Assembly (NCBI RefSeq): GCF_028066395.1
Contig: NZ_JALCBM010000013.1
Span: 1-48,713, forward strand
DNA: 48,713 nucleotides
Reading direction: 5' to 3'
From: Ruegeria sp.
GTDB lineage: Bacteria > Pseudomonadota > Alphaproteobacteria > Rhodobacterales > Rhodobacteraceae
The notes under the pieces were generated by a model that saw nothing but the letters and a program-made list of their open reading frames with translations, did no database searches and was not told the origin of the DNA. Shown here in pieces: positions 8,045 through 10,750 of the stretch (positions are counted from its first letter, which is position 1; each line of letters opens with the position of its first letter). A program made the translations under genes and the position numbers.

Positions 8045-8563
8045 TTACTTAAGGCGCAGCAACCGGTCGAGCGAGAGCGGGCCCGCGCCGTTGATCACCA
8101 TCACCAGAAACAGGAAGGTCCACATCACGCGCTGGTCCATCAGGGATGGGGCGGCGTCAAACAGGCTGCCCAGTTTCACCCCATGACCGGCGACGTCAAC
8201 CAGTGTTTGAACCCAGACAAAGCCGATCATGGCGACAGCGGCCAACCGGGTCAGCAAGCCGACCAGCAGCAGGGCGGGCAGTACAAACTCGGCTACGGTG
8301 CCAAAGAAGATGACGATGCGCTGGAAAAAGGTCATCTGGGTGACGTCCCACAGCACGGCCTCGGCGGCTTTGGGGAAGATCTGGCCGAATGCCCCGCTTG
8401 AGGGTGAGAAGATCGATCCGTCGATCTTCAGCATGGCCGAGTTCCAGTAGTAGACCAGCAGGACAGCGATAAAGACCAAGCGGGCCAATGTGGGCGTCAA
8501 CCAGCCCGAGGCGTGATCCACCTTTTCCATGGAAGCGTTGTAAGTTGAGATCAGGGCAGTCAT
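8045..8563 (-). CDS. DoxX family membrane protein of a bufferin-like operon
   Basis: Four-TM-like DoxX profile (TLARLVFIAVLLVYYWNSAMLKIDG...VLPALLLVGLLTRLAAVAMIGFVWVQTLVDVAGHG); 4-nt overlap with the DUF2063 gene. Confidence 0.82.
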   Translation of the reverse strand: MTALISTYNASMEKVDHASGWLTPTLARLVFIAVLLVYYWNSAMLKIDGSIFSPSSGAFGQIFPKAAEAVLWDVTQMTFFQRIVIFFGTVAEFVLPALLLVGLLTRLAAVAMIGFVWVQTLVDVAGHGVKLGSLFDAAPSLMDQRVMWTFLFLVMVINGAGPLSLDRLLRLK

Positions 8564-9321
8564 GTGTCCAGCCTTTCGATAGTCACGGAAGTAATCGCAC
8601 CGCCCTGTAACAGCAGTGCGAGGGTGGTTCCCAGGTCAAATTCGGGGGTCTCGGCGGCGGTCGCCTCGAATGCTGCGCCAATGGTTTGCCCGTCCTGAAT
8701 CCGGGCGATCCAGTCGGCACCGCCTGCGGGCAGCAGATGCGGGGCGGGGTCGTATTCCGGGCGGGTGATCAGGACATCCTGCGCACCTGCCTGCGGTTTG
8801 GGCGCATCGGCTTGCGAATTGTACTGCCAGATCGCAAAGATCGGCCAGTCGGACCGCAGCACCTGCACCGCCGGGGCCAGGGTCAGTTTCGCGGCCATCA
8901 GATCTTCGGGCGCAATGGCCAGCGCGTCGGGTTCGATTGGGTGGCCATCGGCGGCGTGATAGGCGCGGCGCAGCGCCAGTTCCAGCCGGGCGATATCTGC
9001 CAGATAGCCCAGATGCGAAAGCTGCTCCATCCCGGCCAGAAAACCGGGGAAGTCTTCGCCGTAGAACATCATCAACGGGGACGAGGGCGGGTGCTGGCGC
9101 AGGAAGATGCCCGCCAGACCGTCCATATTCTGTGGCCCCAGCAGTTTGGTGATCACCGGGAAGGCCTGATGCATCGCCTCGGTCAACGAGACGGCCACGT
9201 TGTTGCGGTAAACGCTGAACCGACGCCCGGCGGGGGCGGCATTGGCATCCTGCAAACCGTCTGGCACAGGGCGGCTGGCATCCAGCAGGGCCGAGTGGAA
9301 ACTGGTTTGCGACACGCTCAT
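8560..9321 (-). CDS. bufC: DUF2063 (HvfC/BufC N-terminal domain) putative RiPP recognition/partner protein
   Basis: [55 protein letters not shown]; adjacent to and overlapping the DUF692 gene. Confidence 0.85.
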
Positions 9322-10175: not shown

Positions 10176-10202
10176 CAGCGCGTTCCCTGATCACGATGAA
10201 AA

Positions 10203-10224
10203 GGGCGGGCGATAGTGCCCGCCC
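10203..10224 (-). terminator. Stem-loop between precursor gene and DUF692 gene (putative attenuator/partial terminator)
   Basis: GGGCGGGC-N6-GCCCGCCC perfect 8-bp stem, followed on the minus strand by TTTTC. Confidence 0.6.
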
Positions 10225-10248: not shown

Positions 10249-10551
10249 TTATGCCGGCAGGTCGCGGTCTTGCTCTTCCAGCGAGCCCTGGCGCGGTGTG
10301 CCATCTGCCTGTGCCGGCAGTTCGATATCGGCGCAGGTGCCGGCATCGACCAGCGTCCATGCGTTGCCCTGATAATCGACGGTCGAGGTGCCCGCGCAGG
10401 TGGTGCCGGGGCCTGCGGCGCAGTCATTCTGACCGGCCAGCGAAACGCCGTAGCACTTTTCTTTGGCTTGGGCCGACGCGGTGGTGGCTGCGCCCGATAC
10501 GGCGGCGGCAACTGCGGTTGCGATGACCAGTGATTTTGCGGTGTTCGACAT
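10249..10551 (-). CDS. bufA: DUF2282 family bufferin-like RiPP precursor (BufA1-like) with signal peptide and four Cys
   Basis: [27 protein letters not shown] | [50 protein letters not shown]...; Cys pattern C-x10-C-x7-C-x20-C. Confidence 0.88.
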
Positions 10552-10629
10552 CTCGGTAATCCTCTTGATGACTGGGTATGTCTGCTTGTGACAATGACAA
10601 AGGTAGTGGCTTCGGGGCCAGAGTTGAAT

Positions 10630-10652
10630 TCACGAGCCCGTGTCTCACGAGC
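10630..10652. promoter_or_regulatory. Direct repeat TCACGAGC (two copies, 15-bp period) upstream of the bufA-like gene
   Basis: TCACGAGC at 10630-10637 and 10645-10652, about 80-100 nt upstream of the start codon at 10551. Confidence 0.35.
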
Positions 10653-10722: not shown

Positions 10723-10750
10723 AATCCGGCCCCGCATTTGGGGCCGGATT
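10723..10750 (-). terminator. Stem-loop downstream of thrS
   Basis: AATCCGGCCCC-GCATTT-GGGGCCGGATT, perfect 11-bp stem about 23 nt past the thrS stop; no strong U-tract. Confidence 0.6.

Follow-up and report, generated by a model that had tools for sequence, protein, structure and literature searches.

A near-invariant hairpin between the precursor and maturase genes of a bufferin operon in Rhodobacteraceae: a probable leaky terminator and 3'-end protector

How is the amount of a bufferin precursor balanced against that of the maturase encoded in the same operon? Bufferins, which are copper-binding modified peptides, form a large class that was described recently, and no account of the balance between precursor and maturase was found in the bufferin literature cited here. 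The window, a stretch of 48,713 nt from Ruegeria sp. that was analysed as a whole, carries a four-gene bufferin-1 operon on its minus strand:

10249 to 10551, minus strand: bufA, the bufferin-1 precursor gene (DUF2282, PF10048; Pfam E = 7.7e-25), 100 aa
9318 to 10175, minus strand: bufB, the MNIO (DUF692) bufferin maturase gene (NF050167 MNIO_BufB, 378.6 bits against a cut-off of 310; PF05114)
8560 to 9321, minus strand: bufC-like gene for a DUF2063 MNIO partner (PF09836, E = 3.3e-23), adjoining bufB
8045 to 8563, minus strand: gene for a DoxX-like membrane protein, assigned by a weak NF050144 match below cut-off, its position and the published bufferin operon gene order

The translated bufA product contains four Cys and, judged by eye, its N-terminus resembles a signal peptide. 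The preliminary description held that the downstream genes overlap with no gap, and indeed bufB (10175-9318), the DUF2063 gene (9321-8560) and the DoxX-like gene (8563-8045) share 4 nt at each junction. Its 73-nt gap from the precursor stop to the DUF692 start is equally real; running from 10248 to 10176, between the bufA stop codon (10251-10249) and bufB, it is the sole gap of the operon. In all 192 sequences compared, which comprise the window and 191 loci of the family (certain genomes being sampled more than once), a DUF2282 gene lies upstream of bufB. Synonymous divergence in bufA (0.22-0.48) is below that in bufB (about 0.5), a pattern that fits stronger selection on codons in the precursor gene. 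DUF2282-DUF692 pairs are also found on E. coli and Klebsiella plasmids (e.g. NZ_CP070118.1 and NZ_CP050381.1), where one match touches both annotated genes and therefore no long gap is present.

The bufA-bufB gap contains the element that bears on the question:

10203 to 10224, minus strand: hairpin with an 8-bp GC stem and a 6-nt loop, a perfect inverted repeat whose position is conserved in the family
10199 to 10202, minus strand: TTTT run directly 3' of the stem, followed by C, as read from the sequence

On the minus strand the region reads GGGCGGGC-ACTATC-GCCCGCCC-TTTTC, exactly the hairpin and T-run that had been described. Its arms lie at 10224-10217 (GGGCGGGC) and 10210-10203 (GCCCGCCC), on either side of the loop at 10216-10211 (ACTATC), and the stem can be extended by two G-U pairs (10225 with 10202 and 10226 with 10201). 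The 73-nt gap folds at -29.1 kcal/mol versus a shuffled mean of -21.8 (z -2.48; 4/200 shuffles are equally stable). The window hairpin is not listed by a simple consensus terminator scan, which needs at least 5 T in 8 and a loop of at most 8, and an Rfam scan of the window returned no family. The pattern GGGCGGGC-N3..8-GCCCGCCC has 4 sites in the 4.33-Mb genome, compared with 1 for the reversed control pattern; one copy, in L309, sits just 3' of an ORF with TTTT behind it. Another palindrome of the window, AATCCGGCCCC-AAATGC-GGGGCCGGATT after thrS (10723-10750, minus strand), has no T-run behind it; thus poor U-tracts are possible at gene-end hairpins of this genome.

The preliminary description named a lack of hairpin conservation in close relatives as one refutation of its proposal, and the comparison with relatives does not refute it. 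With a core hairpin defined as one of -12 kcal/mol or better, and distinct gaps of at least 45 nt considered, the hairpin is kept in 154/156 Rhodobacteraceae precursor-maturase gaps, versus 33% of shuffles of those gaps, and in 59/60 genus-level representatives (one locus per genus for most). In the same genomes, 72/220 other co-directional gaps have a core hairpin (Fisher 1.7e-22 vs 59/60), and in the same regions so do 197/304 convergent gene ends and 14% of divergent gaps, with control gene borders taken from a simple, purpose-written coding-score gene caller. In one of the two negative-scoring gaps, that of L059, a long-looped stem of 10 bp can be seen by eye. The gap in L169 (G152) is the sole one of normal length in the family that lacks an evident hairpin, one clear loss. 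Beyond the family, conservation is patchy: a core hairpin is present in 28/50 other alphaproteobacterial gaps of at least 45 nt (shuffles 38%) and in 10/19 gaps from the rest of the phylum (shuffles 11%), and none or nearly none of the shorter gaps outside the family has one.

What is kept is the pairing rather than the letters, since the stem sequences differ between genera while the location is constant. There are 49 distinct 5' stem arms among the 59, and hairpin identity between genera (0.70) is close to that of shuffled pairs (0.68). When 21 Ruegeria-like gaps are aligned, 98.3% of stem cells pair. Covariation is modest, because 6 of the 11 stem pairs never vary and changes on both sides occur at two pairs. 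The last two loop letters, TC (window 10211-10212), are invariant in all 21 of these gaps, and the rest of the loop is variable. The gaps of L041, L054, L055 and L081 carry palindromes resembling dispersed repeats, of the GCCGGGC or GTAGGTCGGGC kind; in some genera it looks as if a repeat-type palindrome has replaced the original gap hairpin.

The terminator character of the element was assessed through its U-run, taken as at least 3 T within 10 nt of the stem. Such a run lies behind 49% of the family hairpins versus 9% expected from shuffled downstream letters, an enrichment of about 5-fold. The frequency is 68% in the closest relatives and 42% in the most distant, and the run is kept in most Ruegeria-like loci. 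At the genus level, 25/59 hairpins have a U-run, more than the hairpins of other co-directional gaps (15/72, p=0.013) and no different from those at convergent ends (69/197, p=0.36). Thus, the element resembles the ordinary gene-end hairpins of the family but occurs with greater regularity. Upstream of the stem, A-runs are no prominent feature (15%). Since half of the family hairpins have no U-run of at least 3, intrinsic termination is not the whole story everywhere.

For a promoter dedicated to the three downstream genes (bufBCD), space behind the stem is tight. The distance from the stem to the aligned BufB start has a median of 32 nt (5th-95th percentile 19-89) and is 27 nt in the window; a spacing of about 27 to 32 nt offers enough space for a ribosome site, but generally too little for a promoter. 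A possible control site of the operon lies elsewhere:

10628 to 10649, minus strand: upstream element CGTGAGACACGGGCTCGTGAAT, candidate operon control site, lying 77-98 nt ahead of the start of the precursor gene

The pattern CGTGNNNCACGNNNNCGTGANT occurs upstream of bufA in 53/60 genus representatives at up to 3 mismatches (shuffles 1%), and, with no more than 1 mismatch allowed, matches the entire 4.33-Mb genome at a single place. The element is a candidate for a dedicated, single-target promoter or operator of the bufferin operon. In addition, the homologous operon of Caulobacter is a single transcription unit (PMC3511200) whose precursor and maturase genes are similarly induced by copper (PMC8224329), and that of Legionella is one unit by RT-PCR (PMC5413113). 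Given the lack of promoter room and the single units of homologous operons, bufBCD mRNA most likely arises through read-through.

Together, these observations favor, with a probability of about 0.68, a hairpin that acts both as a leaky internal terminator and as a 3'-end protector within one transcription unit that spans bufA and bufBCD. Transcription would begin upstream of the precursor gene, and a large share of transcripts would end at the hairpin, with its strong stem and weak U-tract, while the remainder would read through into bufB, the DUF2063 gene and the DoxX-like gene. Exonucleases that work in the 3'-to-5' direction would also be held off by the stem, which would protect the 3' end of the short bufA mRNA. 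The outcome would be precursor mRNA above enzyme mRNA, an excess that would be useful if one enzyme molecule processes many precursors. What we observe is the structure, its conservation, the U-run enrichment and the lack of promoter room; how efficiently transcripts terminate, how stable the mRNA is and in what ratio precursor and enzyme are made are what we infer. The earlier proposal of partial termination or 3'-end stabilisation is therefore upheld in part, on the side of anatomy: a stem everywhere, the enriched U-run, usually no room for a bufB promoter, and one transcript in homologous operons (PMC3511200, PMC5413113).

A locus with tandem bufferin precursor genes (L107, G205; oriented 832-1498) has a strong hairpin and TTTT 3' of the first copy; the second copy lacks a hairpin and is separated from bufB by 23 nt. 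At this one locus the hairpin appears to have stayed with the precursor gene nearer the promoter, which would be expected of an element that determines how much of that precursor is made.

The main rival is stabilisation alone, because half of the genera have no U-run. Read-through would then be full, RNase E or another endonuclease would cut bufBCD, and exonucleases would halt at the stem to leave a stable bufA mRNA. A stem that is near-universal, yet lacks its U-run in half of the genera, speaks for this reading, and the puf operon of Rhodobacter supplies a precedent from the same family (Klug et al. 1987, as cited in PMC6238624 and PMC11354728). However, pure stabilisation has no need of the U-run, neither of its roughly 5-fold enrichment nor of its retention in most Ruegeria-like loci, and we consider this explanation possible but unlikely.

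Quite improbable, to our mind, is a regulated switch, in which read-through into the maturase genes would vary with copper or the state of the precursor, or the bufA 3' end would yield a small RNA with its own targets. We give only slight credence to a full terminator of a monocistronic bufA, with bufBCD expressed from a separate promoter. Anatomically the element does match the other gene-end hairpins of these genomes, and stand-alone precursor genes exist (PMC12452194), but only about 27-32 nt separate stem and bufB, and the homologous operons are co-transcribed (PMC3511200, PMC5413113). Moreover, the upstream pattern CGTGNNNCACGNNNNCGTGANT is absent from the bufA-bufB gap (0/60 genus representatives) and nearly so from bufA. 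A promoter inside bufA was considered and rejected; there is neither a clear fall in synonymous change at the 3' end of bufA nor a motif of the upstream type.

Very doubtful is control of bufB translation by a hairpin that hides the ribosome-binding site: the hairpin does sit in the bufB leader, but the stem ends 27 nt ahead of the start codon, and the accessibility predicted for the ribosome site differs greatly from one relative to another (0.23-0.71; window 0.44), so that sequestration is unsupported. An origin by chance, through GC-richness or from a dispersed repeat landing in the gap can be dismissed, for although shuffling still leaves a core hairpin of -12 in a third of the gaps and the L041, L054, L055 and L081 gaps carry repeat-like palindromes, comparison with other gaps and with shuffles (99% family-wide vs 33%) refutes chance, and the window palindrome has only 4 copies in the genome.

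A near-invariant hairpin in one bacterial family is a concrete, easily deleted element for testing the precursor:maturase balance. It also suggests that enzyme supply may become limiting when bufferin operons are expressed heterologously with their native gap.

A leaky terminator or protector is a known kind of device; for bufferins, no report of one was found in the literature cited here. A literature search for hairpins after RiPP or lasso-peptide precursor genes found nothing direct, and a word search of a 2025 survey of MNIO clusters (PMC12452194) gave no mention of a terminator or hairpin. One of the closest known systems is the Rhodobacter puf operon, in which an intercistronic hairpin and segmental mRNA stability set stoichiometry (Klug et al. 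1987, as cited in PMC6238624 and PMC11354728). In both cases, within the same bacterial family, a hairpin parts genes needed in excess from the rest of the operon. The window hairpin likewise lies between cistrons, whose co-transcription is deduced from homologous operons (PMC3511200, PMC5413113), but the puf hairpin is described as protecting against decay, whereas the one in the window also has a terminator-like U-run. In Ruminiclostridium, internal intrinsic terminators lie after the substrate-binding-protein genes of ABC importer operons, and compared with canonical terminators these are poorer in U and have longer GC-rich stems (PMC9045158). The likeness extends to a stem-loop after a gene needed in excess, a strong GC stem, a poor U-tract and, as proposed for the window, read-through downstream; the differences are that those are ABC importers of Clostridia, studied by Northern blot and qRT-PCR, and that the case described here is a RiPP operon analysed at the sequence level. 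Lantibiotic structural genes, too, have read-through terminators behind them. There, as proposed for the bufferin operon, a leaky terminator-like hairpin splits the precursor gene from the modification genes, although the lantibiotic systems are Gram-positive.
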